From: a virus
Virus record (IMG/VR): IMGVR_UViG_3300009149_010511
Coordinates: 1-61,751 of that record
Direction: 5' to 3' (one strand)
DNA: 61,751 nucleotides
Made by a program: the position numbers and the translations under genes. Positions 1,208 to 24,208 of this stretch are shown piece after piece. Positions within the stretch are counted from its first letter, which is position 1, and each line of letters opens with the position of its first letter. A model generated the notes under the pieces. It was given only the letters and a program-made list of their open reading frames with translations. It did not search any database and was not told where the DNA came from.

Positions 1208-1222
1208 GGAGAAATAAACTAA
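1184..1222 (+). pseudogene. 12-codon remnant of a duplicated gene start
   Basis: ATG at 1184 opens a frame MSKKKQLKGEIN and a TAA whose last base is the A of the next ATG (1222). Its first eight codons and its leader are almost identical to those of the gene at 2757 (MNKKKQLKLDEL). It therefore looks like the 5' stub of a former paralog, or a leader peptide that couples translation into the gene at 1222. Confidence 0.5.
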
Positions 1223-2490
1223 TGGATACTGTTAAATTAACTAGCCACGACTTAGGGTGGCATATAGGGTCTTTGGACATTTTAAGTAGTTACGAGAGTT
1301 CTAGTATAATGATTAAACTCTTTGAGTTTCGAAATCAAGACTTAGGTAAAGGAAAGACTACTACTCCTTATACATTTTATGGTTATGACAAACAACTAAG
1401 CAAATCCTCTTTAGGAAGACTAGGACCATTTATCGCTACTTATTTTGACGCTGGCCCAAAGCGAAGCTCTAATTGGCTTATATGGTATCTACCGGAAGGC
1501 ATTAATACTTTAAAACAGATTGAACAGCTTCCGGCAAGTTGGTATAAACAAATTTGGAATAAACTACTCGCAGTTGCTGCTAAAAAAGCCGGAGAACATG
1601 CTATTGCTGGTGCAAGCAAGAGCTTGATACAAGAAGGCACGCAGCGAGGTAGGCATGAGTTATATGGGAAAAAAATTAACCTTATTATAAGTGGTGCATC
1701 TTTAAAAGGGAAATTAAAGCCTATAGGAGGCGATCTAGATCTTCCGAATGAAGTACAAAAAGCAGAAAAACCCAGTAAAGCATACAATGTAAATGATATG
1801 TTTGGCAATATTAGTGCAAAAGATGTTATTACCAATCCTTTAGATATAGCTAAGAGTGTAAAAAAAGCAGCCCCGGCTGCAGCAGCCGACGCAGAGAAAG
1901 CGATTAATTCTATTAAAGACGCAGCAAAATCAGGTAATGTAGAAGGTGTAGCAAAAGTAGTTGAGAAGGTTACCGAAGGCACAGTGTCTGAGCAAGACTT
2001 AAAAGATATGTCATCAGGAAAAATTCCCGATTCGCTGAATACTATGGTTAAGGATATAAATAAGGATATAGATAAGGATCCTATAAAAAAAGAAGCGTTA
2101 GAGATTGTTAAAAGCAAGAAAAGTTTTCTACAAAAAGTTTTTTCAAAAATTAAGACTATTTTTAAGGAGCACAAAGCTTTAGTAGTACTTATAGGTAGTC
2201 TTATTATAGCAGGTCTCGCAATAGTTGTGTATGTTAAATTAAAATCAAAGAAAAATACTAAGGCTGCAGAATCAGTTTTAGACTCTTTCTGTAGTATAAA
2301 CGATTCTGCCTTCCTAGAAGACACTTCTTCTGATATAGCGAAAATGCTTTTAGCTCTTGGTGCAATGGGATTAATTGCTAAGAGCTTAAAAGGTCTTTTT
2401 TCAAAAGAGTCATCTGGAGCAGATAGAGCTAGATGGGGAGCTACATTACTAATTACGCTTGCTGCAGTATTAGGGTCTGCAGCAGCTTAA
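1222..2490 (+). CDS. membrane-anchored structural-region protein, C-terminal three-TM family
   Basis: This protein has 422 residues. The N-terminal 170 residues are soluble with no recognised fold; residues 195-300 are an Ala/Lys/Asp-rich linker. Then comes a basic helix (KSFLQKVFSKIKTIFKEHK), a TM segment at about 319-338 ending in VYVKLKSKK, and two more hydrophobic segments at about 374-389 and 405-422. The same architecture occurs at 2757, 6312, 14093, 15601 and 18757. The linker motif SGNVEGVAKVV resembles motifs near the ends of the proteins at 4211 and 23279. A 294-codon open frame on the opposite strand is a shadow. Function unknown; probably a virion or ejected membrane protein. Confidence 0.7.
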   Translation: MDTVKLTSHDLGWHIGSLDILSSYESSSIMIKLFEFRNQDLGKGKTTTPYTFYGYDKQLSKSSLGRLGPFIATYFDAGPKRSSNWLIWYLPEGINTLKQIEQLPASWYKQIWNKLLAVAAKKAGEHAIAGASKSLIQEGTQRGRHELYGKKINLIISGASLKGKLKPIGGDLDLPNEVQKAEKPSKAYNVNDMFGNISAKDVITNPLDIAKSVKKAAPAAAADAEKAINSIKDAAKSGNVEGVAKVVEKVTEGTVSEQDLKDMSSGKIPDSLNTMVKDINKDIDKDPIKKEALEIVKSKKSFLQKVFSKIKTIFKEHKALVVLIGSLIIAGLAIVVYVKLKSKKNTKAAESVLDSFCSINDSAFLEDTSSDIAKMLLALGAMGLIAKSLKGLFSKESSGADRARWGATLLITLAAVLGSAAA

Positions 2491-2520
2491 AATTGACATA
2501 ATATAACTTAGAGGTAATAA

Positions 2521-2760
2521 ATGTTTAAATTTCTTAAATGGTATTTGCTTATAGGAATTATTTCCACTATATGGTACAATGCTGAAGATGCTCTCTGTGA
2601 TGTAACCATAACTGAATTAGTGCAGGATTATGATGAACGCATTGTATGTGGTGGCGTTTTTCTTGCTTTGGTTGCGATATCTGTAGTTGTAATGCCATTT
2701 TTTCTTCCTCTTTTGTTATTTGCAAAGTTAAAGAAAAGTGTAGTTGGAGACAAACAATGA
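2521..2760 (+). CDS. small two-TM membrane protein
   Basis: This 79-residue protein starts MFKFLKWYLLIGIISTIW, and residues about 40-70 form a second hydrophobic stretch, so it probably spans the membrane twice. GAGGTAATA lies just before the ATG. Its TGA overlaps the next ATG (ATGA, 2757-2760), implying translational coupling to the membrane protein downstream. I recognise no family; small holin-type or accessory membrane proteins have this shape, but nothing specific supports that. Confidence 0.6.
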   Translation: MFKFLKWYLLIGIISTIWYNAEDALCDVTITELVQDYDERIVCGGVFLALVAISVVVMPFFLPLLLFAKLKKSVVGDKQ

Positions 2761-2780
2761 ATAAAAAGAAGCAACTTAAA
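2734..2780 (+). repeat. direct repeat, copy 2 (47 bp)
   Basis: Second copy of the 47-bp repeat at 1161-1207, with two differences. It contains the ribosome binding site and the first eight codons of the gene at 2757. In both places the preceding gene ends within or just before the repeat. Confidence 0.85.
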
Positions 2781-3467
2781 CTAGATGAATTACAAAAGGA
2801 ATTCGAGAAGTTAGATAGAACTTCCTCAAGACATGACCCTAGAGTATTAACACATGCTTTTTCTCTTGCTAGGGATGGCAAAGTAGAAGAAGCTGCGGAT
2901 GCTATCATGTTTGTCTATGATGAGTTGCCTAAAGAAAAAATAGTCGCTATCTTATCTGAGCCTCCAGGAGAAGAACTTGCTGCATTGCTTTCTGATGCTA
3001 ACAAAGCAATTAACAACTCAAAGCTAAAACATGACAAAGAGTTTGAAAGACTCAAAAAAGAAGTTGCTGACGTACAGAAACCGCTTATTGCTAAAATTTT
3101 AGCTAGCATAAAGAAATTCGTTACTGATAGAAGAGTGTTAGCTATAGTAGGTGTACTTGTTATAACAGCACTTGCAGTTATTGCTTATAGAAAATATAAA
3201 CAAGGTAAAGGTGATTCAATAACTAAAGCAACTGAATCTTTACTTGAGGTATCTCCTTTACTTACTAAAGCAACAAGTAAGAAGACTATCGGTACTCTTA
3301 CTATTGTATTAGGTATCCTATCATTAGTTCTAGCTACATTAAGACTTGTTAAACTTGTTAATTCAGACAAAGACATTACAGCAGAGGGCGGTGTACAGAT
3401 TGTTATATCTTATCTAGCAGGAATTATTACTTTACTGAAAGGTATCTCAATGCGTACGGCCTCATAA
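2757..3467 (+). CDS. membrane-anchored protein, C-terminal three-TM family
   Basis: This protein has 236 residues. I chose the ATG at 2757 because it follows TTGGAGA and overlaps the upstream TGA; the open frame extends further back. The N-terminal half is charged and helical (FSLARDGKVEEAADAIMFV looks like a TPR-type helix pair). A basic helix (KILASIKKFVTDRR) leads into TM1 at about 128-145, followed by YRKYKQGKG, ATESLLE, and hydrophobic segments near 179-199 and 213-230. The order matches the proteins at 1222, 6312 and 18757. No enzymatic motif is visible. Confidence 0.7.
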   Translation: MNKKKQLKLDELQKEFEKLDRTSSRHDPRVLTHAFSLARDGKVEEAADAIMFVYDELPKEKIVAILSEPPGEELAALLSDANKAINNSKLKHDKEFERLKKEVADVQKPLIAKILASIKKFVTDRRVLAIVGVLVITALAVIAYRKYKQGKGDSITKATESLLEVSPLLTKATSKKTIGTLTIVLGILSLVLATLRLVKLVNSDKDITAEGGVQIVISYLAGIITLLKGISMRTAS

Positions 3468-3478
3468 GAGATAATGAA

Positions 3479-3850
3479 ATGAAAAATACACAGAAGTTGC
3501 TAGATGACAAGTTTCGAGAAGCTGTTAGACTTTATCCCAACCAGATTAAGTTTTTTGCAGCATGTGGCGCTAATGTGGATGTAACAAACAGATTAGGCAA
3601 CACTTCTTTAATGTTAGCAGTATTCTTTGAAGAAGTGCACACTGTAAACACTTTAATTGAGTGTGGCGTTAATATAAACGCACAGAACCGTAATGGCGAT
3701 ACAGCTTTAATGATGGCTATTAGAAGCGGTAATAAAGAAATAATTAAGATATTGATTGACGCAGGAGCAAAGACATACGTTACAGATAAAGCAGGCAACG
3801 ATGCATTTACTAAGTTTTATACTACTCAACTAAATCAAAATTCTAAATAG
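3479..3850 (+). CDS. ankyrin-repeat protein
   Basis: This 123-residue protein carries at least two ankyrin repeats: GNTSLMLAVFFEEVHTVNTL then IECGVNINAQNRNGDTALMM and AIRSGNKEIIKILIDAGAK. These show the G-x-TALM-A, V/I-x-x-L-I and GA-x-V/I-N signatures. The first 30 residues (FFAACGANVDVTN) look like a degenerate starting repeat. Ankyrin repeats bind other proteins; the partner is unknown. It lies between membrane-anchored proteins of the virion-like arm, so a role in assembly or against host proteins is possible. No signal peptide or enzymatic domain is present. Confidence 0.8.
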   Translation: MKNTQKLLDDKFREAVRLYPNQIKFFAACGANVDVTNRLGNTSLMLAVFFEEVHTVNTLIECGVNINAQNRNGDTALMMAIRSGNKEIIKILIDAGAKTYVTDKAGNDAFTKFYTTQLNQNSK

Positions 3851-3861: not shown

Positions 3862-4218
3862 ATGATTATTCTAACATCAGAAGTAGTTAATGTAGCTGAT
3901 AAGTCTATTGGCTTATTTGGTGACTTAGTAAAGCAGTTCGGATCTCAGTACCCAGCAATCGCTTTATTTGCTCTTATTTTCATTGCTATACTTGCTTTAA
4001 TACTTTGGGGTGGTAAGAGCATGTTTAAAATGTTACTTGCTTTCTTTACAGCTAAAGATGTTAAGGAAGGCGAAAACCACTTAGCAGAAGTTAGACGACA
4101 GTTTGAAGCTATGTTTAAAAAACTTGATGTCATTGAAGATAAGATATCTGAGATACGCGGAGCTTTATTTATGAAAGCTAAAGAAGAAGAAAAATCTGAT
4201 GGAGATATTGATGTCTAG
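3862..4218 (+). CDS. single-TM protein with C-terminal coiled coil
   Basis: This protein has 118 residues. A hydrophobic segment at about 33-52 (PAIALFALIFIAILALILWG) is followed by a charged, heptad-like helix (ENHLAEVRRQFEAMFKKL, VIEDKISEIRG) and an acidic tail. The fold suggests an anchor with an oligomerising coiled coil. GAAGGTGAAT precedes the ATG. The last eight bases overlap the next gene. This arrangement is seen in holin-like and tail-accessory proteins, but I cannot choose. Confidence 0.6.
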   Translation: MIILTSEVVNVADKSIGLFGDLVKQFGSQYPAIALFALIFIAILALILWGGKSMFKMLLAFFTAKDVKEGENHLAEVRRQFEAMFKKLDVIEDKISEIRGALFMKAKEEEKSDGDIDV

Positions 4219-5197
4219 AGAAGTACCTACTATTGACGGAAGAGGAAGCATAGTTAAGCCAGACTACCCTTTTGATGGAAAGTTACTTTATAACCAATTA
4301 CTCGCTCGAGCGGCACTTCAAACTATGCTAGATGAAGAAATAGCTAAGAAAAGACTTGATAAAGAGCAGGCTCGTTTGAAGGAACAGCAAATGCGTTTTG
4401 ATCAAATTAAAAAGAATGCTAATATTAAACATGTAGTTTTATGGAATCAAGCTTTAGACAATGTATCACCAGATAATATAATGTTAGATGGTGTATTACT
4501 TCCTGCTATAACTAAAGGACAACAACGCGCAAGAAGTGTAGTTGTGAATAAAGTCTCTCGAGTATATTCAAAATACAAGGAAGATCGTCATAAAACAGAA
4601 GTATCCGAATTTGAAATTAGAAGAGTAGTAGGACCTAATGTAATAGCTGTAGAAGCACCACTTAATGAAAAAGACAGTGAAGGTCGGCAAGCAATCTTTG
4701 TAATTTATGTTGAATGTAAGAAAGCGTTAAACTCACGTGACATAATTCTTGTAATTGAAGCTATTAGAACTTTTTGCGGACTTGTTGGTATAAGTATAGC
4801 ACCTGCAGTACATAATAGTATTAAAGAACTTCTTGCAGGCAAACCTTCTATATGGCTAGTGTGTAAAGAAAAAGCTCGTGAAATGAAAGCTAAGTTAGTT
4901 AAAGCATTAGCCCCTGTGATGAAGAAAATCAAAGAGCGTAAAAAGCAGATAATCATTATAGTACTAGCACTAACTGTTCTTACTATAGCCCTTTATTACT
5001 TATACATGTACAAAAAGAAGAAGGTTTCTGCTGATGTAGTTAAAACACTAGTAACAGCTTCTACAACTAAAAGTTCTCATGATATAGTAAAAGAAATGAA
5101 ATCAGCAGATGATGCAATGAACTCTGGTAATATAGAACAGGCAGGAAAACAAGCTGTAAGTGTAATGAAAACGTTATTTACTCAACCTCAAATTTAA
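4211..5197 (+). CDS. single-TM protein, paralog of the protein at 23279
   Basis: This protein has 328 residues. I chose ATG 4211, which sits 6 bases after GGAG; an in-frame ATG at 4199 overlaps that site. The C-terminal third matches the protein at 23279: KAREMK, a basic helix, TM at about 247-267 (LTVLTIALYYLYMYKKKK versus ITVLAIALYYLYKYKKQ), then a helix pair (DDAMNSGNIEQAGKQAVSVM versus QAMDKGNVPEAGTQAVASM). The N-terminal domains are unrelated by eye. This looks like one anchor module attached to different front domains. Function unknown. Confidence 0.7.
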   Translation: MSREVPTIDGRGSIVKPDYPFDGKLLYNQLLARAALQTMLDEEIAKKRLDKEQARLKEQQMRFDQIKKNANIKHVVLWNQALDNVSPDNIMLDGVLLPAITKGQQRARSVVVNKVSRVYSKYKEDRHKTEVSEFEIRRVVGPNVIAVEAPLNEKDSEGRQAIFVIYVECKKALNSRDIILVIEAIRTFCGLVGISIAPAVHNSIKELLAGKPSIWLVCKEKAREMKAKLVKALAPVMKKIKERKKQIIIIVLALTVLTIALYYLYMYKKKKVSADVVKTLVTASTTKSSHDIVKEMKSADDAMNSGNIEQAGKQAVSVMKTLFTQPQI

Positions 5198-5208
5198 AGG
5201 ATAACTAA

Positions 5209-5703: not shown

Positions 5704-6016
5704 ACCAAACAAAGGTGAACATAAAGACGAATTCATAAGCAGGTGTATACCTAAACTTATTAAAGATGAGAAGTATCCACAGAAACAGGCAATAGCTATT
5801 TGTTATAGTTATTGGAAAGACAAAGACAAAAGAAAGATGGAAGGTGTTTTTTGTGAGTCTAGTGAACATGGCTCACTATATTATAGATCAGGCAAACCTA
5901 TTGCTATGTATGTAAAAGATCTTAGAAAACTATATGTACTTACTGAATACATGACTTCCTACCAAACAATGGCAGACGCTTGTGAAGCTAAAGGCGTTAC
6001 AGTTGTTGGTGTATAA
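5696..6016 (+). CDS. small protein with phage GE-x-x-x-FI-x-RC...AIC-YW motif
   Basis: This protein has 106 residues. The N terminus (PNKGEHKDEFISRCIPKLI then KQAIAICYSYWKD) matches a short motif that recurs in phage portal, protease and head proteins, where F-I-x-R-C and A-I-C-x-x-x-W form a small helical unit. The C-terminal 55 residues (YYRSGKPIAMYVKDLRKLYV) have no recognised fold. The ATG follows AAAGGAG. The frame stays open for 52 further codons after its TAA, described separately. Confidence 0.55.
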   Translation: MPKPNKGEHKDEFISRCIPKLIKDEKYPQKQAIAICYSYWKDKDKRKMEGVFCESSEHGSLYYRSGKPIAMYVKDLRKLYVLTEYMTSYQTMADACEAKGVTVVGV

Positions 6017-6311: not shown

Positions 6312-7865
6312 ATGGCTGAAACACACGATTTCGCTAAAATTATTCAAGTAATTGAAACTAACAAAAGGAATCCGGAACTGATTTTAAAATTGTTAGCAAC
6401 ATACAAAACCTTTATTGCGTCAAAAGAAGATCCTTTGATACATTACGGAATGCGTCTCAATAAAGCTATGCTGGGAAGTTCTCCTAAGCCTAAAGATTAC
6501 GACGGTTACGCTGTATTGTCCTTAATTTGGATAACACATGAATTAGGCTCGTATGAAAAAGAATTGAAAACATTATTAAAGCATACAGGACTAGCAGCTA
6601 CTGGCGGAAGAGGTTTACGACATGACTTATTAGCTAAGAGTGTAGACTCATCTATTACAGCTCCAGCAGGAACAATGGATAACTTAGCACAGAATGTTAG
6701 ATACTTACTCGGAACTAAATACCTGAAAGCTGTTAATACAGTAGAAGCTAAGGATGGCACTAAAGGTATTATTGATAGAGTTATAAGAACAGCTGCCAGC
6801 TTGTTTGCATTAAACACAAACGAATTCTTTGCTATAGCTAACTTGTCAAAGTTTAATCTTGATATGTATACTAATATGTCTGATGCTTTTCTTTATACAT
6901 TACGTGCAGGCGGAGAAGACACTGATTTACACAGACTAAATGATAACCCTAGTGCTAATGCTGCCATTATTAATAATGATGTTTTTAAGAATATATTTTT
7001 AGATAAGTTTCCTGAACAGAAAGATATGCTGCTTAAGTTTGCTCTTACTAATGCTTCCATAGCAAGAAAACTTGTTGCTTCAGCTAAAGGTATAGCAGGT
7101 ATGGAAAAAGATGTGCAGCATAACGAAGCTGAAAAGATCCTCAACAGCGCATTAAATATTGATAAAATGAATCAGCCCTATCTAAAAAGATTATTCACAG
7201 GAACAACAGTAGGTATTAAAAATGTAGAACAACCTACAGCAGGCATAACTAAGAATTCACTAATTGAGACTGCTAAAGATTTACTTCCTGCTATAGATGA
7301 TCCTTTTGTACAAGAACATTTTAGCTTTTCAATGGGAAAAGATGCATCTGCTACTGAAATGTTTTCATCAATGGATAGTAGTACTAAGAATGTAATAAAG
7401 AAGTTTGTTGAAGATAAAGAAATTAGTGCAGAGGATGCAGGGCTAGATGATCTTAACGCTAACATAAATAAAGATCCTATGCTGAAACGAATCTATAATA
7501 AAGTGAAGACTAGCATAGGTGCGTTAAAGACACGGTTCGTTGCAATGCTTAAAAAGATAGGTGTTAAACCAAAGACTATTGCTATCCTTGTTGTTTTGCT
7601 AATTGCTGCAGTAGCAATTGTTATTTATATTAGAAAAAAGAAACAATCTTCATCAAGTACAGAATCTACTACAGTTGATGAATTATGTGAAGCAGGTACA
7701 CTTACAAACGTTAAGACAACCGGGCAGACTGTGTTTACTTTAGGTATTTCAGAATTCTTAATGGCTACTTCTAAGATTGGTAATGAAGGATTTACAGTAG
7801 CCTCTATCTTCTTTGTTTTCGGCCTAATTAACATTATGCGTTCATTAGGAGTCCAAAAACAATAA
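6312..7865 (+). CDS. large membrane-anchored protein, C-terminal three-TM family
   Basis: This protein has 517 residues. The first 330 are predicted helical and soluble (starting AETHDFAKIIQVIETNKRNP) with no recognised fold. An acidic linker with DLNANINKDPMLKRI resembles DINKDIDKDPIKKEA in the protein at 1222. Then come a basic helix (LKTRFVAMLKKIGVKPK), TM1 at about 422-441 ending YIRKKKQ, TESTT, and two further hydrophobic segments near 473-487 and 496-512. AGGAGATGATAGC precedes the ATG. It is the last gene before a 98-base gap that precedes the tail genes. Confidence 0.7.
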   Translation: MAETHDFAKIIQVIETNKRNPELILKLLATYKTFIASKEDPLIHYGMRLNKAMLGSSPKPKDYDGYAVLSLIWITHELGSYEKELKTLLKHTGLAATGGRGLRHDLLAKSVDSSITAPAGTMDNLAQNVRYLLGTKYLKAVNTVEAKDGTKGIIDRVIRTAASLFALNTNEFFAIANLSKFNLDMYTNMSDAFLYTLRAGGEDTDLHRLNDNPSANAAIINNDVFKNIFLDKFPEQKDMLLKFALTNASIARKLVASAKGIAGMEKDVQHNEAEKILNSALNIDKMNQPYLKRLFTGTTVGIKNVEQPTAGITKNSLIETAKDLLPAIDDPFVQEHFSFSMGKDASATEMFSSMDSSTKNVIKKFVEDKEISAEDAGLDDLNANINKDPMLKRIYNKVKTSIGALKTRFVAMLKKIGVKPKTIAILVVLLIAAVAIVIYIRKKKQSSSSTESTTVDELCEAGTLTNVKTTGQTVFTLGISEFLMATSKIGNEGFTVASIFFVFGLINIMRSLGVQKQ

Positions 7866-8156: not shown

Positions 8157-9872
8157 ATGGCTAGTAATGTTATCAGCCCTGGCGTATATAGGCGGATAAT
8201 CGACCTCTCTACTTTTGTAGATTCCGTGCCTAGCACAATTGCGTTCATTTGTTTTCTGTCAGAAAAAGGTGAAGACAATGTTCTCAAGTTTGTTAGTTCA
8301 CAAGAAGAGTTGATCACTAAAAATGGTCAGCCTAACATCAACAGGTATGGACAAGGTCTGTATAATGCAGATCAGTTCCTACAGAGGTCACAGTCCCTTT
8401 ACTACGTTAGAGTAACTGCACCAGACGCATGTTTTGCTAACGTGTTTGTAACACTTGCTAACTCAGTGGATGACAAGTTCACAACAACATCACATGCAGA
8501 TGTTGAAACTGTTTCCGAGTTAGAAACAATTCTTGCAAGCACAACAGGAGATCCGAACTTTATTGCTTTTTACGGTGTTGGAAGAGGCACGTATTACAAC
8601 ACGACAGCAGTAACCTTAACACCTTCTTCAAGTCTTGCTGGACTAGACACTTATGTGATCGACATCTGGGAAGAAGATCTGACAGGTGATATGGTTATTA
8701 TTGAGTCGTTTGTTGGCTCTCTCAATCCGGATCAGCAGTACAATGGCAGATCCATTTATATCGAAGACATCGTTAACACTTATTCAAACATCTTGAATTG
8801 TCGTGTTAATGTTGCCAACATGACTGAATACCTCAGTTTTAAAGCGTTTGCTGATGCAGGAAATCCAGCAGGATACACAGGACCTATTACTTTCTGGTAT
8901 ACCGTTGGACCTCCAGTTCAGTATACAAAGATTTCTGATCCTTTCAGTGCTTACATTTTACTTGCTGGTGGATTTGATTCAGACATGTACAATGTAGACG
9001 GAACAGTTAACTGGGTAGCCGCTGAGCAATACTTAGCTCAGGCTTATCTTGGTGATCTTCCTTACTACGATCCATCCGTAGGTGATACCGACAGAACTTT
9101 CTTTACAGTTGTATTTGATGCAGACTATCCAGACGGAGTTAAAGACTCTATCAAAGCTCTGTGTGAAACACGTGAAGACTGTGTTGCTATTATGGACAAT
9201 GGTTTCCACACTGGTCCTAATGGTATTCAGGCTGCTATTGATGATGCAGAAGGCGGAGGCGTTCATGATTTCAATAGCTGGTATGTCGCACTATACGAAA
9301 ATCATACACTTGTATACGACAGATATACAGGCAGAAGAATCTGGTTGTCTCCTTCCTATTGGATGAGTGCAATCATTCCTACTAACGATAGAGTAGCTGA
9401 ACCTTGGTTTGCTGCTGCAGGCTATAATAGAGCCGCTCTTAGTGGTATTAAAGAAGGCGCACTGTATCCAACTAAAGGAGATAGAGATAGGTTTTACGAA
9501 ATCCAATTGAATCCTATCGCTCTCTTGAAACCAGGTTGGGTTGTCTGGGGACAGCAAACCAAATGGGACAAACCGTCTGCCCTTAGAGATCTGAACATTG
9601 TAAGGTTGCTGCTTTACATAGATGCAGCTCTTAAACAGTTTGCATTGTTCTACATCTTTGAACAGAATGACTATTTCACATGGTCATCGTTCCAGGATAG
9701 AGTTATTACGTTCCTGGAAGACATCGTGGCAAGGCGCGGTCTGTTCTCATATCAGGTTAAAGTGTTCGCAACTGAATATGAATTGCAGACAAACTCTTTC
9801 CATGCTGACATTTGGCTGAAGGCAATCCCTACAGTTGAAAAGATCTTCCTCAATTATACAATCACGAAGTAA
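8157..9872 (+). CDS. contractile tail sheath protein
   Basis: This protein has 571 residues. The N terminus (VISPGVYRRIIDLS then STIAFICFLSEKGEDN) and the following block (QFLQRSQSLYYVRV) are typical of myovirus sheath proteins of the T4 gp18 type. The C-terminal region (LRDLNIVRLLLYIDAALKQF) matches the conserved sheath core with its R-x-L-x-I-x-x-x-x helix. It polymerises around the tail tube and contracts at infection. GGAGGAAAG precedes the ATG, and the next gene encodes the tube. At 571 residues it is slightly shorter than T4 gp18 (659). Confidence 0.9.
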   Translation: MASNVISPGVYRRIIDLSTFVDSVPSTIAFICFLSEKGEDNVLKFVSSQEELITKNGQPNINRYGQGLYNADQFLQRSQSLYYVRVTAPDACFANVFVTLANSVDDKFTTTSHADVETVSELETILASTTGDPNFIAFYGVGRGTYYNTTAVTLTPSSSLAGLDTYVIDIWEEDLTGDMVIIESFVGSLNPDQQYNGRSIYIEDIVNTYSNILNCRVNVANMTEYLSFKAFADAGNPAGYTGPITFWYTVGPPVQYTKISDPFSAYILLAGGFDSDMYNVDGTVNWVAAEQYLAQAYLGDLPYYDPSVGDTDRTFFTVVFDADYPDGVKDSIKALCETREDCVAIMDNGFHTGPNGIQAAIDDAEGGGVHDFNSWYVALYENHTLVYDRYTGRRIWLSPSYWMSAIIPTNDRVAEPWFAAAGYNRAALSGIKEGALYPTKGDRDRFYEIQLNPIALLKPGWVVWGQQTKWDKPSALRDLNIVRLLLYIDAALKQFALFYIFEQNDYFTWSSFQDRVITFLEDIVARRGLFSYQVKVFATEYELQTNSFHADIWLKAIPTVEKIFLNYTITK

Positions 9873-9946: not shown

Positions 9947-10642
9947 ATGCCAGCAAATCCAAATCCTTTTGCAGCACGAAGACTTAACAGGTTCTTTGGC
10001 GGCACAAATGCGCAAAGAGACCCTTATGTGTCTGGATTCTTTCTAATCCAGTTTAGATCACTACCACAAGACATGATACCAGATGATAGTGGAAAAATTC
10101 TAACCGCCGTATGTACTGCTGTTACTCTACCAGATTATTCACTAGACAAAGTTACAGTCAATGCACTTGGTGGACTGAAATTCCATGTTCCTGGAGCATT
10201 AACAATCGGTGAAACTTGTTCACTGACATTCACTGAGTATCAGTATTTGCCAGTATTCAATACTATCCGTGATTGGTCACATGCTATTAGGAATAACATT
10301 CTTGGTTTCTCCAACCATGATTCATTAGTAGGCACTGACGCTTATGTACAGAACAAGTACAAAGCTGGTTTGCTTGTTGCTTACTGTAGACCAAACATGC
10401 AGGAAGTTGAATTCTATGCTTATCTATCAGGTGTATGGCCTCTCAAGGTTCCTACAGATGGTCTTAATGCTGAAATCGCAACAGTAGAAAAGAAAGATCT
10501 TACTGTTGACTTCTCAGTTGATCTTCTTCACCTTGATGAATGGGTCAAACAAGAATGCCAGAATATGGTTGATGACATCCGTGGCTCAGACATCAACAAT
10601 ATTATTAATCTTGACAACTTCACTATCGGTGGACAGAGCTAG
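9947..10642 (+). CDS. tail tube protein
   Basis: This protein has 231 residues and directly follows the sheath. It shows the gp19-like order: an N-terminal DPYVSGFFLIQF strand, AVCTAVTLPDYSLD, a GLKFHVPG turn, then a long strand region with LSGVWPLKVP. Tube proteins stack as hexameric rings that form the channel for DNA. AAGGAGGAG precedes the ATG. The TAG is followed nine bases later by the baseplate gene. The call rests on position, length and overall pattern. Confidence 0.8.
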   Translation: MPANPNPFAARRLNRFFGGTNAQRDPYVSGFFLIQFRSLPQDMIPDDSGKILTAVCTAVTLPDYSLDKVTVNALGGLKFHVPGALTIGETCSLTFTEYQYLPVFNTIRDWSHAIRNNILGFSNHDSLVGTDAYVQNKYKAGLLVAYCRPNMQEVEFYAYLSGVWPLKVPTDGLNAEIATVEKKDLTVDFSVDLLHLDEWVKQECQNMVDDIRGSDINNIINLDNFTIGGQS

Positions 10643-10651: not shown

Positions 10652-12994
10652 ATGGCAATACTTAAAGAACGATTTCCCATTGAGTATGATGAGTTACGTG
10701 ACGAGTTAAAATCTTTAATAGAAGAAAAGTTTCAAACAGAGAACCCGGATGTTTATGAGTCCGGGTTCATTGCTTTCTTTACTGATGCATTAGCTACCGC
10801 ATCATTAGATTCACTTTTCTACTCATCTATGACTTATAAGGAAGCATTTCTTTCTCAGGCTGTACTGCCCGAATCTGTATTGAATATTGCACAGCAACTT
10901 TCTTACAATGTTCCTAATGCAATACCGTCTGAAGTTGATATTTTAATCTCAGTGCCTTTCGCTAAAAATGGCGTTAGGCTCTGGGATTATATCCAATTTA
11001 CATTTCCTAAGTGGACTAGGTTTTCAGCCTCGTCTTTACCTTTTCTACTTCCGTATGATGTAATCTTTAATTTCAATTATGACCCTGATGCTTTTGTAAA
11101 CAATTTATACAAGCAAACGGATACGGCTATCTCAAAGATTCCTTTTGAATTCAGCACAGTAGAGCCAGATCCAGTTGGACGACCTGGAGAGACTGATACT
11201 TACTTACAGTTCCTAGTAACAGGCGAACAGTATAACATAGAGGAATATACTTTTACAGCACCTAGACCAGAACCACTTAGGTTTAATACTATAGAAGTTG
11301 GTTTCTCTGATCAAGTATACAAAACAGAAGTATATATAAGACCTCCAAACGATGGTGCTGAATATGAATTATGGACAGAAGTTGATAATGTGTTTCAACT
11401 TAATTATGGAGAAAAAGGATACGCAACTAGCGTATTTCAAGATAAGGTAGTTTTCACTTTCGGTAATGGTATCTACGGACGCATTCCTCTTACAGAGTCT
11501 AGCATATTAATTAAGGTATTCGAGACTAAAGGTAAAGAAGGCAAAGTCGTTGCAGGTACAGTTACTACTGCACCTAGAATTTATAATGATGCTCCTACAG
11601 GCGGCATTGTAACTATGTATGTTTCTAATCCTAGAGTTTCTACTGATGGACAGAATAGAGAGACTATAGAGCAGACTAGAAGAAATGCTAGAGATTACGC
11701 ACGCGCTGTAAATGGTTTAGTATCAGAAAGAAACTATGAAAATTTAGGAGCTGTACTTCAGATACCTTTACAGGACTCAATGGCTATTATAAAAAGATCA
11801 GACATTCATTCAAATGAGATCTTTACTTATATAGCAACTAAGTTTTCTGATACTGAATTAGTTCCTAGTAGGTCAGATGTCGTAACCTTTGATAACTTAG
11901 TTCTGCAACCTATTACGAAGGACGGCTACACTTTCCGTTGCCCCTTCGAGATCTATCCTAACATTGCTTCAAATTCATTGGATTACAGGTATGTGGCTAA
12001 AAGTTTAACAGGCAATGTTGACTTAATCGCAACAACTGAAGAAGCAAAGAACCATGCAGCAGTATTAACTGGTTATGTAGCCACCTATGATTCCGTAGCA
12101 AGAACCTTTACATTAAAGATCCCTTACAACTATGTAAAACTTGATAGTGAAGGAAATGATGATCCAACATATCCACCTAAGCTACGACTGTATGGACAAA
12201 TGGGATTACATTCTTACGTATTTAATAATGACACAGGTAACAGATTGTTTGATGTTATTATTGATCGTGATGATGTTGAAGACGGTCTAACAACTATTAC
12301 AGTTGACTTTAAGTATTATGATGATTCAGTTCCTACTGAGAAACTTCTTAGAACATATAAGATGAATTTCATCTTAGTTCAGAATTTAGACTCACTGATT
12401 GCAAGCCCTACAAAAGACCTAGGCGGCAACATTATAGAAGCGTATGATGTTCCTTTAATCGAAGAAAGTTTTTATCTTTCTAACTTGCAGTGGCTTGATA
12501 TAAACATGCTGCAGCAAATGGCTATGTTTGCTGATGTTGTCGTTAGGTATCGTATTATGACTGACCAAGTGTATTTAAAGTTTGCTAATACTATCGGTAA
12601 AGTTCATAACATCGAATATAACGATACTAATCCAAATGCTGTTAAGACGTATGTATCACCTAACTTTCCTCTACCTATAGAAATTAGTATGCGTGTTTAT
12701 ATTAAAGAACAAAACAACGCGCAAGCTGATGTCGTTATTAGAGAAGTTAAGGAAGCTATTTATGAATACTTTAAGCCTAAGTTTGGTTTCGAAGTAAACA
12801 TTTATAAATCAGAAATAACCAAAGTTGCACAAAATGTTGATAACGTTGAATTTGTTGAACTTATTGAGCCTTATGATAGTATAGTTTATGACTACTATAG
12901 AAAAGACTTAACTAAGCAACAGCTAATTGAATTCACTCCTGAGTTTACTTGGTTCAACGAAAGCAATATACAAATTGAAATTATAGTAGACTAA
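10652..12994 (+). CDS. baseplate wedge protein, gp6/J-like
   Basis: This protein has 780 residues. The central region (NARDYARAVNGLVSERNYEN) carries the signature of the baseplate J/gp6 family, in which R-A-x-x-x-x-S-x-x-x-Y-E introduces the core domain. The N terminus (FPIEYDELRDELKSLIEEKF, then DVYESGFIAFF) and the C-terminal region (VYIKEQNNAQADVVIREVKE) also fit T4 gp6-like wedge proteins. It would form the inner baseplate ring around the tube, with the gp25-like protein at 38243. The two genes are about 25 kb apart, unlike the compact T4 arrangement. Confidence 0.8.
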   Translation: MAILKERFPIEYDELRDELKSLIEEKFQTENPDVYESGFIAFFTDALATASLDSLFYSSMTYKEAFLSQAVLPESVLNIAQQLSYNVPNAIPSEVDILISVPFAKNGVRLWDYIQFTFPKWTRFSASSLPFLLPYDVIFNFNYDPDAFVNNLYKQTDTAISKIPFEFSTVEPDPVGRPGETDTYLQFLVTGEQYNIEEYTFTAPRPEPLRFNTIEVGFSDQVYKTEVYIRPPNDGAEYELWTEVDNVFQLNYGEKGYATSVFQDKVVFTFGNGIYGRIPLTESSILIKVFETKGKEGKVVAGTVTTAPRIYNDAPTGGIVTMYVSNPRVSTDGQNRETIEQTRRNARDYARAVNGLVSERNYENLGAVLQIPLQDSMAIIKRSDIHSNEIFTYIATKFSDTELVPSRSDVVTFDNLVLQPITKDGYTFRCPFEIYPNIASNSLDYRYVAKSLTGNVDLIATTEEAKNHAAVLTGYVATYDSVARTFTLKIPYNYVKLDSEGNDDPTYPPKLRLYGQMGLHSYVFNNDTGNRLFDVIIDRDDVEDGLTTITVDFKYYDDSVPTEKLLRTYKMNFILVQNLDSLIASPTKDLGGNIIEAYDVPLIEESFYLSNLQWLDINMLQQMAMFADVVVRYRIMTDQVYLKFANTIGKVHNIEYNDTNPNAVKTYVSPNFPLPIEISMRVYIKEQNNAQADVVIREVKEAIYEYFKPKFGFEVNIYKSEITKVAQNVDNVEFVELIEPYDSIVYDYYRKDLTKQQLIEFTPEFTWFNESNIQIEIIVD

Positions 12995-14092: not shown

Positions 14093-15544
14093 ATGCCAAC
14101 TAAAGAACAACTAGAAAACGAGAAGCTTAAGAAAGCTTTAAACGCAGAAAAAGCTGCTCGCAAGGAAGCGGAAGCTGCTGCGCAAATGTATGGCGGAAAG
14201 GAATACAATCCTCAAAGCCAAGACATGCAGGAAGCTCTTAATAAGTTTGCACTGTCCGATATAAAGGTTTTAAATCCTAAACTCGCTGCAACTATTATTC
14301 AAGTTGCTAAAACAGATCAAACAACAGATGTTGCTAGGAAAGCAAAAGCTGTGTTAAGAGCGCTTCCTATGGTTATTGCTGCTGAGTTGTCTAAAGGTGT
14401 ATCAGCTGATGATACTGATATTTATCTTAGAACGTATATACTTTATAAAACAATGATTGACTTAGAGATGTTCCGTAAAGGACAGAACTGGGAAAAGTTA
14501 ATCCTTCCTGCAATGAAAGAAATCAGAGAGCATAAAGATAACGCGTGGGGTGGGAACAAAGCTACTTATAAAGTTAAAGTAGAGAACGCTATTTTAACTA
14601 AAGCTTTACAAGAAGAAACTAAGACTAGATCTGCTGATGAGTTTTATGGTGGATCTAAGAATGATTTCTTTGAAAAACTTGTAGCAGAGCTTTCAGATGA
14701 GAATAAGCACATTATGCAGAACTTTTTTGCTCCGGGAGCAACTCCTGCGTTAGACGATGTTAAAACAGTTGGTCAAGTTAAGTCAAAATATAACAAGATT
14801 AAAGGTGAAACTAAAAACAAAATAAGTGAGATACAATCAAAACCAAAAGAAGTATCTGAAGAAAAGGTTGTAGATCAACTAGAAACTGTACAGACTGAAA
14901 TTAACGCTAAGGTTAGAGAACTCCAAGAGGACGTAGATGCAGCAGAGAAAGAAGCTACTAATAAAATTAATAAGCTTCTTAAGCTTAAAGATAGAACATT
15001 AGCTGGAGTACTGGCTGATGTTGCAACTGACTCTTATGAAGAGACTTGGATGCGTGTTCAGAATTTTGTTAATGAAGTAATTAAACAGACAAAGATCAAA
15101 CCTGGTATGTTAATGGGATTGGTTGAGTCTTTTAAGTTTAAAAAGAAATTCAGAGACGCTAAAGAAAAAGCTAAAGGGTTCGTTAAGAACACTATAGCTA
15201 AGATGAAGAAGCGTTGGTCTGAGTTCAGTACTAAGAAGAAGGCATTAGTAGTTGTTACTTCTATTATATTCGCTTGTGTTGTTATAGGTCTTACCTACTA
15301 CATGATTTATAAAAATAAAATGAAAGCTGTAGTAGGCGATAAGGCTGTTGAGAAGATGGGCGAGAGTTTAATGGAAGCAAAAGATGTGCATGTAGGCTGG
15401 ACTATAACAGTCGTACTAGGTTTTGTTCTTTTGCTAGCTACTGTAATCAAGTTAGCCATCGATGCATTCAAAGATAAACGATATGTTGAAGGAATAGCCG
15501 AATCGGGTTTCGCTATCCTTTTAGTAATGTTCATATTTAGGTAG
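14093..15544 (+). CDS. membrane-anchored protein, C-terminal three-TM family
   Basis: This protein has 483 residues. The N terminus is a charged coiled coil (LENEKLKKALNAEKAARKEA); residues 225-320 form a second coiled-coil stretch. A strongly basic helix (KEKAKGFVKNTIAKMKKRW) precedes TM1 at about 384-406, which ends YKNKMK, then GESLMEAKD, TM2 at about 430-452 and TM3 at about 464-482. The GES-L motif after TM1 corresponds to TES-L/AES-V in the proteins at 2757 and 1222. It is embedded in the tail cluster, which supports a virion-related role for the family. Confidence 0.7.
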   Translation: MPTKEQLENEKLKKALNAEKAARKEAEAAAQMYGGKEYNPQSQDMQEALNKFALSDIKVLNPKLAATIIQVAKTDQTTDVARKAKAVLRALPMVIAAELSKGVSADDTDIYLRTYILYKTMIDLEMFRKGQNWEKLILPAMKEIREHKDNAWGGNKATYKVKVENAILTKALQEETKTRSADEFYGGSKNDFFEKLVAELSDENKHIMQNFFAPGATPALDDVKTVGQVKSKYNKIKGETKNKISEIQSKPKEVSEEKVVDQLETVQTEINAKVRELQEDVDAAEKEATNKINKLLKLKDRTLAGVLADVATDSYEETWMRVQNFVNEVIKQTKIKPGMLMGLVESFKFKKKFRDAKEKAKGFVKNTIAKMKKRWSEFSTKKKALVVVTSIIFACVVIGLTYYMIYKNKMKAVVGDKAVEKMGESLMEAKDVHVGWTITVVLGFVLLLATVIKLAIDAFKDKRYVEGIAESGFAILLVMFIFR

Positions 15545-15600: not shown

Positions 15601-16380
15601 ATGAAGTTCAAAGAAACTACCGACAAGTTTGTAAACATACTAAAGAACTTGGGTAAGAAAGACAATGAAGCCGCTAAAAAGGGTGCAGAAGAGTTAGGTA
15701 TTCAGGATGACTTATTTGAAGGATCGCCTGAAGAAGCTGCTGAAAAGCTTTCTATGTCAGCAAAAATTAAAGAGACTGTTTCTAAGTTTCAAAATGCTGT
15801 TAACGAAAATGAGATGATTAAAAAAGCTAAAGAGATTGTGGAAACAAAATTCAGGCCGCAGATTACTAAAATCACTGTAGCAATAAAGAAACATTTCCCT
15901 AATAAAAAGTTTCTTGCTATAGCTATATCTTTACTCGTTATAGGATTCTCAATGTTTCTTTATTTCAAAGCTAGGTCTCAGAAGAAAGGCGAAGCATCGC
16001 AGGAATGTATGGAAACTATGCTTACTGAGGGTATATTTGCAGACATAGACAAAAGTGTTGACAGCTTCAGTGCAGATATGGACATGGACGGAACAGCGTC
16101 TGCAGTAAAGAAGATTACAAAAATAGCAACTGTAGTAGGTCCTATATTAATAGTTATTCTGGTAGGCGCTATAGCCGCAGGACTCTACTATATGGTAACA
16201 ACAGGTGAAATCTTAAAAGGCATAGGAATAATTACAGTAGCTGTATTTGTTTTCGCAGCAATTATCGTTGGTGGCGCTTTTATAGCCTTGTTAACTATGA
16301 AGAAAGGTATAGAGAAAGATGTTGATGCAGAAATGGCTAAAAATGCAGAACCAGCAGAACCAGTAGGTGCGCCTGCATAA
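15601..16380 (+). CDS. membrane-anchored protein, C-terminal three-TM family
   Basis: This protein has 259 residues. A charged N-terminal half leads to FRPQITKITVAIKKHFPNKK and TM1 at about 104-122 (FLAIAISLLVIGFSMFLYFK). That segment closely resembles NKKFLAIAGAVILFGIALII in the protein at 18757, so these two are recent paralogs. Two long hydrophobic segments follow at about 176-200 and 208-232, and the C terminus is Ala/Pro/Glu rich. AAAGGAG precedes the ATG. No catalytic motif is seen. Confidence 0.7.
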   Translation: MKFKETTDKFVNILKNLGKKDNEAAKKGAEELGIQDDLFEGSPEEAAEKLSMSAKIKETVSKFQNAVNENEMIKKAKEIVETKFRPQITKITVAIKKHFPNKKFLAIAISLLVIGFSMFLYFKARSQKKGEASQECMETMLTEGIFADIDKSVDSFSADMDMDGTASAVKKITKIATVVGPILIVILVGAIAAGLYYMVTTGEILKGIGIITVAVFVFAAIIVGGAFIALLTMKKGIEKDVDAEMAKNAEPAEPVGAPA

Positions 16381-16446: not shown

Positions 16447-16830
16447 ATGGAATTCTTGAACAAGTTATTTGAGTTCTTGCTAAGACCTGAAGTTGTAGTT
16501 ATCGTCGGTGCTATTGTCGGTTTCGGTTTTGATGTTTGGAAGACAGCACCTAAGAGGGCACTACAAAGGGCGATTGAGTTGATTACTGATTACTCGCCAA
16601 TTATTTTTAATGCAGTAGAAGAAGCTGCGCGGGTTGCTAAACAAAAAGAAGGTGCCGATGTTGAGAAGATTGACAAAGCACTTTTATTTGAAGAGCACAT
16701 TAAACAACTACTTAAGCAGTATGGTGCTTTAGTAAATGATGAAGTCATTAAGTTTGCGCATGCAAATGCCAAGTCTATTAACTTTGCAAAGAGGCAGGAA
16801 GAGGCAGAAAATGCCAAACTACTGGGATAG
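16447..16830 (+). CDS. single-TM protein resembling LLH-type holins
   Basis: This protein has 127 residues. An N-terminal hydrophobic segment at about 14-28 (PEVVVIVGAIVGFGFDVW) is followed by a charged helical region (FNAVEEAARVAKQ ... KALLFEEHIKQLLKQYGALV). This order (one TM, then E-A-x-x-A, K-x-x-A and a C-terminal V-x-x-x-x-x-A-N-A helix) recalls phage holins of the LLH superfamily. That family call is inference. AAGGAGGTATACACA precedes the ATG, and the gene is followed directly by a strong terminator, so it ends a transcription unit. Confidence 0.45.
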   Translation: MEFLNKLFEFLLRPEVVVIVGAIVGFGFDVWKTAPKRALQRAIELITDYSPIIFNAVEEAARVAKQKEGADVEKIDKALLFEEHIKQLLKQYGALVNDEVIKFAHANAKSINFAKRQEEAENAKLLG

Positions 16831-16925: not shown

Positions 16926-17774
16926 ATGTCCAAGTATGTGAAGAACGGGATATTAACCGAAGCTGCAATTACAGCACTAACCGAAGCGGCTACTTCTGCA
17001 AACTTCAAGAAGATTGCAGCTACGCATATAAACAATGTAAGAAATATTGAAGAGACTCTTTCTAAGCATGGTGTAAATGTTAAGCAGTTAAAGCAAGAAG
17101 CAAAACCGATGTCTAAGAAAATACTTGCTGAAATTAAAATTGCAAAAGGTACTGATCCTAAGTCTGCAAGCACAAAGGTTATGGACATGATAGAAAAAGA
17201 AGCTAGAGTCCTACAGAAAAAATTTGAAAAACAGATAAAGACTCCTTCAACAGAAGGCGGAGACACTCTAGCTATAAACTTAGCAAAGTCCTTAGGTTTA
17301 CTTTTGCTTGCTACAATAATACAGCAGTTCTGTATGGGATTTGTTGAAGGAATTTTTAAAGGTTTTCAACAAGAACGCGGTATTTCTATAAATGAGGATG
17401 ACAACAAACTTAAGTCAGTAATGTTAGTTTCTATTATTGTAGCTCCTTTAACAGAAGAGTTTGCTAAACGTATAGCAATTAAAGATGATTTTGGGTGGAC
17501 ATTTGGTTTTGTATTTACAGGTGTTGAAACTGCGGGAGCTATCCACAAAGGTGTAACCGCCTTCGGGGTGAAGGGTTCTAAGAACATATCAAGATTAGTT
17601 TTCCTAAGACTACTAGCAGTTGTTATGCACTTTACTACAATTTTTGTTCAGAAATTGTTTGGAAAAGATAGTAAAAATGGCTTTTACATAGCTGTATTGA
17701 TACACGCTGTTTATAATGCAACTGCTTTCTTATTTGGTAAGCAGATTGCAGGATTTCTGGGTGTAACAGATTAA
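16926..17774 (+). CDS. PrsW/CPBP-like intramembrane protease
   Basis: This protein has 282 residues. The first 110 are soluble and charged; the rest is a polytopic membrane domain. It shows the signature residues of PrsW-type glutamic intramembrane proteases: EE-x-x-x-R at E177-E178, FGFVFTGVE with E201, R-x-x-x-V-V-M-H with H235, and H-x-x-x-N at H260 and N264. CPBP proteases share the EE-x-x-x-R and H-x-x-x-N parts. Such enzymes cut TM proteins within the membrane. It is the first gene after the terminator, close to many membrane-anchored phage proteins that are obvious candidate substrates (inference). GAGGAG precedes the ATG. Confidence 0.75.
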   Translation: MSKYVKNGILTEAAITALTEAATSANFKKIAATHINNVRNIEETLSKHGVNVKQLKQEAKPMSKKILAEIKIAKGTDPKSASTKVMDMIEKEARVLQKKFEKQIKTPSTEGGDTLAINLAKSLGLLLLATIIQQFCMGFVEGIFKGFQQERGISINEDDNKLKSVMLVSIIVAPLTEEFAKRIAIKDDFGWTFGFVFTGVETAGAIHKGVTAFGVKGSKNISRLVFLRLLAVVMHFTTIFVQKLFGKDSKNGFYIAVLIHAVYNATAFLFGKQIAGFLGVTD

Positions 17775-17789: not shown

Positions 17790-18281
17790 ATGTACAGTTT
17801 TATGTTCTTAGTTATCTGTATCGGACTCGTTGTATATAAAAAAGAAGTTTTCGCAAACAAATTACTCATTACTAAAGTATTAAATCAAATACCATCCTTT
17901 GTAAGAATGGTGCGTGAGATTCAGAAGTGTATGGAAAAGAATGGCGACGATCCTAAGAAGATAAACTTAGTAGATGCTGTAGCAGACGAATGTGAACGCT
18001 TAGCTACTTTGCTAGGTATAGCCATTGACGGTAAGACAGGTAAAATTATTCGAATGTTAACATTAGCTTATTACAGTGAAGCACATTTCAAAAAAGATAT
18101 TACTATAGACTTTTATAATGTACTAGAAAAGACTGACTTGAAAGAAGAGAAATGCGATCACTTAGTTTATATCTTTAATAGGTTTATCGGAGAAATGCTA
18201 AGGAACCCATACCGTGCTCTTTTAAACGGTGCTTACAGGTTTTATAAATACTTGAGGCATTTTGGATACATAGGCGAATGA
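17790..18281 (+). CDS. N-terminally anchored protein of unknown function
   Basis: This protein has 163 residues. The first 19 (MYSFMFLVICIGLVVYKKE) form a TM anchor or uncleaved signal; the rest is helical and soluble (RMVREIQKCMEKNGDDPKKI). AAAGGAG precedes the ATG. Its TGA overlaps the next ATG (ATGA at 18278), so it is translationally coupled to the acetyltransferase. No motif is recognised. Confidence 0.55.
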   Translation: MYSFMFLVICIGLVVYKKEVFANKLLITKVLNQIPSFVRMVREIQKCMEKNGDDPKKINLVDAVADECERLATLLGIAIDGKTGKIIRMLTLAYYSEAHFKKDITIDFYNVLEKTDLKEEKCDHLVYIFNRFIGEMLRNPYRALLNGAYRFYKYLRHFGYIGE

Positions 18282-18756: not shown

Positions 18757-19425
18757 ATGAAAATTGTAGAGTCGATTAAAGAATTCTATGCAAGTATGTC
18801 GGGTAAGGACAAGGCTGAAGTAAAGGAAATGCTTAATAACTTAAAGAATGAGGATTCTGCTAAGTATAAAGCTACTATCGAGGACTTAGAAAAAGAAACA
18901 GGAGCCCCTGCTAAAGAAGAGTTTGAGAAAGAAGATAGTCCTGAAGTTGATAAGTTTGCAGACAGGATGAAAAAAACTCTTAATGATGTACAAGCTAAGT
19001 ATATGAATCAGGATTACTTCAGAAAAATCTATGATGAAGTTAAAGGAAAAGCAAGACCTTTAATTGAAAGGCTTATGAAGCAGATGAGAGAGAAGATTAC
19101 AAACAAAAAATTCCTTGCTATCGCAGGTGCTGTTATTCTGTTTGGTATTGCATTGATTATATATTTCAATATGAAAAGAAAAGAAGGTGAACCTACAGCC
19201 GAAGCTATTCAAGAAGCAGTAGCTGGTTTTGAGCAGTCTGCTTTAACCGAAGCTGTAGCAGTAAAATTTTCAACTATAGCAGGACTCTTCCTAATTCTTC
19301 TAGGGTTTAAATATATTATACAACTACCTGACGATAGAGATAAGATGAATGATGCTGAGAAGAAATTATTTAACTCTGCAATAGGACACATAACTGTAGG
19401 AATGCTTTTACTTTTTGTAATCTAA
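18757..19425 (+). CDS. membrane-anchored protein, C-terminal three-TM family
   Basis: This protein has 222 residues. I chose ATG 18757, which follows TTGGAGGATACTGTT; a TTG at 18727 in the same frame lacks a good site. The N-terminal half is acidic and helical. KARPLIERLMKQMREKITNK leads into TM1 at about 119-137 (FLAIAGAVILFGIALIIYF), then FNMKRKEG, and two hydrophobic segments at about 170-188 and 206-222. It is closest to the protein at 15601. The 77-base gap upstream is AT-rich (GAGATATATATCC, GATAATTATACT) and may hold a promoter, but I cannot define one. Confidence 0.7.
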   Translation: MKIVESIKEFYASMSGKDKAEVKEMLNNLKNEDSAKYKATIEDLEKETGAPAKEEFEKEDSPEVDKFADRMKKTLNDVQAKYMNQDYFRKIYDEVKGKARPLIERLMKQMREKITNKKFLAIAGAVILFGIALIIYFNMKRKEGEPTAEAIQEAVAGFEQSALTEAVAVKFSTIAGLFLILLGFKYIIQLPDDRDKMNDAEKKLFNSAIGHITVGMLLLFVI

Positions 19426-23263: not shown

Positions 23264-23278
23264 TCTCAGGAGGATATA

Positions 23279-24208
23279 ATGACTAAACTAACAGAAAAGC
23301 AAGCACCTTGGCCGGTTCAAGGAATAAAAAATCAGCCACCTTATGATGTAAGTACATTTGCAGAAGGAGAAGCAGGGTGGTGGAACAAACCAAATGCTGA
23401 TCCTGTAAAAACAATGCTTCCTCCACAGTGGAAAGCAGCTCCTCTCAGAAGTGACGCTGCTAATATTGTATTAATTGGTAAACCGGGTGTAAAAGGTTGC
23501 TTAACAGCTACTCTACCTTACAAGACTACAATAGAAGTTGCACTGTATTGGGAGACGCCAGAAGAGGTTGCTGCTGGAAGGAGAAAAAACCCTTCTGCAC
23601 AGGAAATGTTAATAATGCGGTTCAAGCTTGAACCTTTCTGGGCTACACATTTTATTAACATCTTGGGAAGTTCAAACACCGAAAAAGAAATGCAAGAGAA
23701 GTTTGAACAGCTGGAACGAGAAGGATTCCCTGAAAGTAAGGAATCCACTTTAGATTCTGATATGCCAGAAGTTAGTTCTCAAGATGTCGACTCCTTACAA
23801 AAAGAAGCAGGTGTTGAACAAACAGGCGGAACAACTGATGTAGAGAACCCTCCTAAAGATTCACTCTGGCAAACATGTGTTAATAAAGCACGTGAAATGA
23901 AAGATAAGATTGCTAAGTTTCTTAGAGGAGTATTAGCAAAGATATCTGATAAACAGAAAAAGATCATTTTAATAATGCTCGCTATTACTGTACTTGCGAT
24001 TGCTCTTTACTATCTGTATAAGTATAAGAAACAAAACAGTAGTGCAGCGATTGCTTCCCTTTCTAAGAAAGAAGGCTTGTCTACTGTATCGGATTCAAAG
24101 TCATTGATCGGTACTATGTTTAAAGCTAAGCAAGCTATGGATAAAGGCAACGTTCCTGAAGCAGGTACACAAGCTGTTGCTTCTATGACTTATCTATTAA
24201 AACAATAA
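23279..24208 (+). CDS. single-TM protein, paralog of the protein at 4211
   Basis: This protein has 309 residues. Its N-terminal domain (PWPVQGIKNQPPYDVSTFAE) is Pro/Trp-rich and unlike that of the paralog. The C-terminal third carries KAREMKDKIAKFLRGVLAKI, TM at about 229-250 (AITVLAIALYYLYKYKKQ) and a helix pair with DKGNVPEAGTQAVASM. The shared anchor with different front domains suggests module shuffling. CAGGAGGATATA precedes the ATG. Function unknown. Confidence 0.7.
   Translation: MTKLTEKQAPWPVQGIKNQPPYDVSTFAEGEAGWWNKPNADPVKTMLPPQWKAAPLRSDAANIVLIGKPGVKGCLTATLPYKTTIEVALYWETPEEVAAGRRKNPSAQEMLIMRFKLEPFWATHFINILGSSNTEKEMQEKFEQLEREGFPESKESTLDSDMPEVSSQDVDSLQKEAGVEQTGGTTDVENPPKDSLWQTCVNKAREMKDKIAKFLRGVLAKISDKQKKIILIMLAITVLAIALYYLYKYKKQNSSAAIASLSKKEGLSTVSDSKSLIGTMFKAKQAMDKGNVPEAGTQAVASMTYLLKQ

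Follow-up and report, generated by a model that had tools for sequence, protein, structure and literature searches.

Passage of DNA and proteins through the host inner membrane is poorly known for contractile phages, above all for large ones. In the virion of the giant phage SPN3US, paralog families with 2 members and 20 members have been assigned to the head (PMC5694885), and its protease cleaves after A-x-E (PMC10052503), so glutamate-directed cutting is established in large phages. The literature and family libraries that we searched contain no description of membrane-anchored paralog sets in tail operons. Here we analyze such a set, T1–T8, in an entire IMG/VR virus record, a linear fragment of 61,751 bases (the window). 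Its source is a large uncultured contractile-tailed phage.

The tail-gene arm

Four structural genes define the tail region of the window:

8157..9872, plus strand: tail sheath (PHROG tail sheath, 3.5e-59)
9947..10642, plus strand: tail tube (PHROG tail tube, 5.9e-4)
10652..12994, plus strand: baseplate wedge subunit, gp6-like (PHROG, 3.9e-19)
38243..38662, plus strand: gp25-like baseplate wedge subunit (PHROG, 1.3e-24)

The closest annotated phage by sheath is phiR1-37, at only ~27% identity, which places this phage far from any isolate. The gp25-like gene lies ~25 kb from the gp6-like gene; in relatives, few genes separate the two. ORFs encoding transmembrane (TM) proteins are concentrated in the first part of the window, accounting for 13 of 24 before 24.2 kb versus 8 of 68 after it (Fisher p = 7e-5). 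Eight of the proteins encoded there form the set considered here; a slash in a linker sequence follows its glutamate:

1222..2490, plus strand: T1, 422 aa; unrelated front domain, basic helix, TM1 at ~2179–2241, then linker AESVLD and two weak hydrophobic segments
2757..3467, plus strand: T2, 236 aa; TM1 at ~3126–3188, linker TESLLE/V at 3240–3251, TM2, TM3
4211..5197, plus strand: T3, 328 aa; additional hydrophobic stretch at residues 178–196, TM1 at ~4946–5008, helical tail without a TM pair
6312..7865, plus strand: T4, 517 aa; large front domain, TM1 at ~7566–7634, linker LCE/A at 7683–7694, then two segments, the first one weak
14093..15544, plus strand: T5, 483 aa, the most divergent of the window's members; charged, helical front, TM1 at ~15233–15304, linker GESLME/A at 15368–15379, TM2, TM3
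15601..16380, plus strand: T6, 259 aa; TM1 at ~15910–15969, linker LTE/G at 16021–16032, TM2, TM3
18757..19425, plus strand: T7, 222 aa; TM1 at ~19108–19170, linker LTE/A at 19243–19254, TM2 and TM3 forming the C-terminus
23279..24208, plus strand: T8, 309 aa; TM1 at ~23960–24022, helical tail as in T3

All eight ORFs were confirmed at their ATGs. A pattern search found a clear Shine-Dalgarno sequence for six of them, and T2 and T3 have a GGAG-like sequence upstream. T1–T8 lie on the same strand as the sheath, tube, and baseplate genes, closely spaced and interleaved with them. Together they constitute a lineage-specific tail-arm family, presumably late, with a common membrane-anchor module and differing front domains. 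Further membrane proteins of the arm are:

2521..2760, plus strand: ORF of 79 aa separating T1 from T2, with a pair of hydrophobic stretches; family membership not demonstrated
3862..4218, plus strand: small single-TM protein, outside the T module family
16447..16830, plus strand: small single-TM protein, outside the T module family
16926..17774, plus strand: PrsW-like intramembrane metalloprotease homologue (Pfam PrsW-protease, PF13367, 4.3e-4), with PLTEEFAKR and HAVYN read in its sequence
17790..18281, plus strand: N-terminal single-TM protein, outside the T module family

Other genes of the arm are of varied kinds. The protein at 115–1170 is a fusion of a NUDIX hydrolase (Pfam 7e-16) and a domain at the N-terminus that, by eye, appears ADP-ribosyltransferase-like; its first residues, MNFTQIATILEAA, resemble a T4 capsid-targeting leader. 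Two acetyltransferase-like genes (5209, 18278) and ankyrin repeats (3479) are also present, as are two WxxGxW-repeat proteins (19437–21539 and 21542–23263), whose domain and repeats match proteins of 634–735 kb phages (LR745206, LR756501–LR756504) at 30–43% identity. The first of the two additionally bears a HEYGH zincin-like motif and a TM segment near its C-terminus. LR745206, LR756501, and LR756504 contain no credible member of either the T family or the cysteine family described below.

Outside the arm, a 225-aa protein beside gp25 (36679–37356) has a C-terminal TM segment and a basic end (AAYMSKKGAK), a plan similar to that of the T proteins, and is not significant as a member of their family. 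Three more groups of repeats or apparent paralogs were seen: six small proteins in a row at 40496–42421 (minus strand), whose CxxC...C(C)xxC patterns suggest zinc-binding paralogs in tandem; proteins at 27060–27461, 31272–31766, and 32818–33228 with a common N-terminal plan (I.GIA), two of them with SCEGH; and repeated units of the type DxxAKxDEDxxIRxxYY at 49098–49964 (minus strand).

A common C-terminal module

Lysine-rich helices and TM segments can look alike without common descent, and we therefore ran two controls on the similarities among T1–T8, each trimmed to its start as listed above before comparison. By blastp, most pairs among T1, T2, T4, T6, and T7 match at ~1e-4 to 1e-10, T3 and T8 are 47% identical over their last 120 residues (2e-18 to 2e-26), and T8 and T5 match T2 more weakly. 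The first control, using local shuffles that preserve the hydropathy profile, gave z-scores of 3–9 in many pairs (maximum 8.7) and 13.2 for T3/T8, with values near zero in some pairs involving T3, T5, and T8. For the second, leave-one-out profile HMMs were run against two control sets, 200 local shuffles of this kind and 92 TM segments taken from other proteins. These HMMs recovered all eight T proteins, at E values of 1e-8 to 6e-17 (30–58 bits), and none of the shuffles or control segments scored as high as the real modules. T5 had been borderline in a first leave-one-out test, at 3e-5, equal to a background low-complexity match; it was clear in the later, controlled one. Given recovery of every member with no control reaching a real score, the C-terminal module is most likely homologous across the eight proteins. 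The sequence-only reading had proposed a paralog family of this kind with at least eight members, and the mutual profile matches among the modules agree with it.

Chance or convergence, in which a lysine-rich amphipathic helix followed by a TM segment yields spurious matches among unrelated tail proteins, would fit the weak pairwise links of T5 and T3, as well as one protein of the sister phage described below (L054 5312–6187), which falls inside the background. Against it stand the scores of all eight window modules above the hydropathy-preserving shuffles and the other TM segments, together with the identity between T3 and T8, making this explanation very improbable. Chance similarity is refuted for the T set as a whole and could still apply to single outlying members.

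The module consists, in order, of an amphipathic basic helix, TM1, and a Tyr/Lys-rich stop. Each of the eight proteins has one TM helix with basic residues on both sides, TM1 is strongly hydrophobic throughout (Kyte-Doolittle 2.4–3.2), and membrane anchoring of T1–T8 is well supported by prediction. Several finer points of the sequence-only reading needed revision. Its motif for all the TM segments, A-L-x-[IV]-x-[YF], occurs in literal form in T7 only; a looser pattern, approximately [ILV]-A-[ILV]-x(1-3)-Y and then K/R, is the common trait, though even this does not fit T5 and T6. Nor do the proteins end with TM1 and a basic stop, as 62–137 residues come after TM1. A linker with two more hydrophobic segments was correctly ascribed to six members, T1, T2, and T4–T7, with the qualification that the segments are weak in T1 (TM2/TM3 Kyte-Doolittle ~1.3–1.4), as is T4's middle segment; in T3 and T8 a helical tail takes the place of linker and TM2–TM3. 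ES-[LV], said to be frequent in the linker, is found in T1, T2, and T5 and is absent from the other three of the six. The front domains are for the most part unrelated, as claimed, with the exception of T6 and T7, which align across nearly the whole pre-TM region.

The 20 residues ahead of TM1 carry a net charge of +2 to +8, from which the N-terminal domain is predicted to be cytoplasmic (N-in). TM1 would be a signal-anchor, to which we infer that the TM2–TM3 hairpin adds in six members. An AlphaFold model of T7 (pLDDT 49) was too poor for a fold search.

Between TM1 and TM2, the motif [LI]-x-E-[AGV] is present in five of the six three-segment window proteins, T1 being the exception, and in all three L054 proteins. 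These eight of nine linkers compare with 0.7 expected in shuffled linkers, and 0 of 5000 shuffles were as good, figures to be read with the motif's shortness and the relatedness of the nine linkers, which are therefore not independent tests. Judged from these sequences, it is a better signature of the linker than ES-[LV]. The T4 prohead protease prefers [LI]-x-E, and the linker motif may be a protease cut site.

Sister and distant phages

Relatives were sought with the window tail sheath as anchor gene. Single-protein scans with the sheath and with gp6 returned no relatives, and alignments were required. Sheath alignments found no relative in genome contigs, and we accordingly infer no host. 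Among viral sequences, a scan with a T3/T8 alignment gave no match. A recurrent match, L005 21226–21636, was dismissed as a non-membrane, charged helical protein.

The sheath-alignment scan did identify a 10-kb sister fragment, L054 (IMGVR_UViG_3300024262_003125), with a sheath 59% and a tube 53% identical to those of the window; no other close relative was found. Upstream of its sheath, L054 encodes three proteins with the TM1-linker-TM2-TM3 plan. By leave-one-out profile, the first (2935–3834) is a clear member of the T module family, with T2 as its closest window match, the third (6345–7235) is a marginal match, and the second (5312–6187) has no sequence support and is the same by architecture only. 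L054 also encodes a protein (4629–5372) homologous to those at 24225–24830 and 24849–25613 in the window, which form a second small paralog family directly after T8 and bear a PMSSxxFAxEFL-like motif at the C-terminus.

More distant phages carry a different anchor. Members of what we term the cysteine-hairpin family have an N-terminal domain, a basic stretch, a weakly hydrophobic, Ala/Gly-rich TM segment, and a helical hairpin that bears two pairs of cysteines; they were found in the related uncultured T4-type myophages L056, L057, L083, L092, L103, L155, L159, and L164–L166. Seven loci found first (L009–L014, L035) have tail clusters without such TM proteins. In many relatives, the single-TM protein after gp25 belongs to this family. 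L159, L164, and L165, with sheaths ~41–44% identical to that of the window, each have three consecutive cysteine-hairpin genes flanked by the tube gene and a gp26-like gene (Pfam T4_baseplate), and further members lie upstream of the sheath; by profile matches, distinct genes number ~5, ~6, and ~4 per contig, respectively. Several paralogs lack cysteines 3–4 together, as expected for two separate pairs, and some lack all four. The pairs probably form disulfides outside the cytoplasm. In a model of L165 11550–12500 (pLDDT 76, fair), the front domain is all-helical, a long helix covers the TM segment, and the hairpin is formed; this model had no match in the PDB or BFVD. We considered whether N-terminal [LIFVM]-x-E-[ASG] in this family (15/26 versus 3.7) represents a capsid-targeting leader and rejected the idea, as it overlaps the conserved front-domain sequence FIxxEASDxQI.

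The cysteine-hairpin proteins resemble T1–T8 in having an N-terminal domain, a basic stretch, one TM segment, and a tyrosine/lysine-rich stop, and in occurring as several paralogs per phage around the sheath, tube, gp26-like, and gp25 genes. They differ in that a cysteine-paired hairpin, rather than a linker and TM2–TM3, follows the TM segment, and in that their front domain is conserved within the family; four paired cysteines after the TM segment are absent from the T1–T8 sequences. Profile comparison by hhalign gave a probability of 0.4%, and of 23% with larger alignments (single-comparison P 9e-4). In the window, the cysteine model scores best on T proteins, seven of the eight, all of them weakly (E 0.026–0.55), and L166 16641–17612 matches the models of both families (1.7e-23 and 3.9e-5) and may bridge the two. 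On these comparisons the cysteine-hairpin set appears analogous, and not demonstrably homologous, to T1–T8, with common origin of the basic-TM-basic core possible.

Recurrence of the arrangement in relatives with a different anchor is the strongest new point of this analysis. A set of membrane-anchored paralogs among tail genes, as first proposed from the window, is seen again in the sister phage and, with the other anchor, in distant relatives, which points to selection for such a set and not to chance. The companion claim that ordinary contractile phages carry no such set may hold. T3, T4, and two cysteine-family members had no match in 50,697 annotated phage records, but a plain count of TM proteins near the sheath gives 9 of 18 in the window against 6 of 21 in phiR1-37 and 6 of 22 in QdP_Psa3, not far below. 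Neither family has a convincing match in Pfam or PHROGs, including holins and lysis or exclusion families.

Some of the phages with a T set or a cysteine set also encode a homologue of the PrsW-like protein. The window copy scores 20.3 bits, below the Pfam gathering threshold of 23.5. It has homologues in L155 (8e-15), L139 (3e-8), and L159 (1e-6), of which the L155 protein (20–796) passes the cut-off at 27.0 bits; the L159 and L166 records also contain PrsW above the cut-off. Window and relatives share the EE-containing motif region with PrsW (PF13367), although the window copy falls short of the family threshold. The homologues L155 20–796, L159 2523–3311, and L139 5–418 are near tail or capsid genes, that of L139 adjoining a capsid gene. 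Co-occurrence suggests that the PrsW-like protein may act on the anchors. Relatives with long contigs encode a T4-type S77 prohead protease and a gp23-type capsid protein, indicating T4-type head biology at least in relatives; no prohead protease was seen in the 61,751-base window.

Possible roles: entry, assembly, or host modification

Our preferred reading, held tentatively, is that the virion carries T1–T8 to the host, where they work at the inner membrane as the phage enters. It is favored by the repeated linkage to tail genes, by the number and diversity of the proteins, by the virion paralogs of SPN3US, and by effector-like neighbors. At that membrane, the common anchors would allow several neighboring subunits to come together within the bilayer, and the front domains, facing the cytoplasm, would engage the tail, DNA, or host targets. 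The linker site could be cut by a T4-type prohead protease, a kind that relatives encode, or by another protease, with the PrsW-like protein as a second candidate for clipping the anchors. Two observations weigh against parts of this. The hydrophobicity of TM1 is awkward for storage in a virion without lipid, and prohead proteases act on head proteins, whereas the T genes are among tail genes.

The same strong TM1, with its positive-inside bias, would suit tethers made late in the producing cell's inner membrane, whose cytoplasmic front domains hold tail or baseplate intermediates and which stay out of the virion. T4 prohead assembly begins on the inner membrane with gp20 and gp40 (PMC9958956), and interleaving of the T genes with sheath, tube, and baseplate genes fits such a role. 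So does the anchor of the relatives, with paired cysteines that are expected to pair outside the cytoplasm and are lost pairwise in several paralogs. Eight different tethers are many, however, the Ala/Gly-rich, weakly hydrophobic TM segment of the cysteine family looks less like a permanent anchor, and no known assembly factor was matched; we regard assembly tethering as possible but rather doubtful.

The probable effector-like genes of the arm (NUDIX fusion, two acetyltransferase-like genes, ankyrin repeats, PrsW-like protein) also raise the idea of late host-membrane modifiers, serving lysis control, superinfection exclusion, or defense and counter-defense, that merely happen to be located in the tail operon. 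Against this, the sets stay closely linked to sheath and tube in the sister phage and in the distant ones, and no PHROG lysis or exclusion family was matched; we consider it unlikely.

Returning to virion delivery, its broadest form would have a clade of large T4-type myophages deliver 3–8 protease-trimmed, tail-encoded, anchored paralogs of two anchor designs, which build a multi-subunit inner-membrane complex serving as a DNA-entry channel or compartment seed. We offer this as a long shot. Of the sequence-only reading, the paralog set and its place among the tail genes are thus supported, and the role that it suggested, an ejected DNA-entry channel or an assembly or membrane compartment, is a proposal. 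Both the T and the cysteine modules are short, testable protein modules.

Among known systems, ejection proteins of the T7/P22 type are virion proteins that enter the host membrane, which for T1–T8 is proposed only; they belong to a different virion type. No known ejection or channel protein was matched in sequence, or in a fold search with a cysteine-family protein. The SPN3US/phiKZ families differ in being virion head proteins by mass spectrometry, with no Pfam or PHROG match to T1–T8, yet they resemble them in arrangement, since a single large phage encodes many paralogs as part of its virion genes (PMC5694885).
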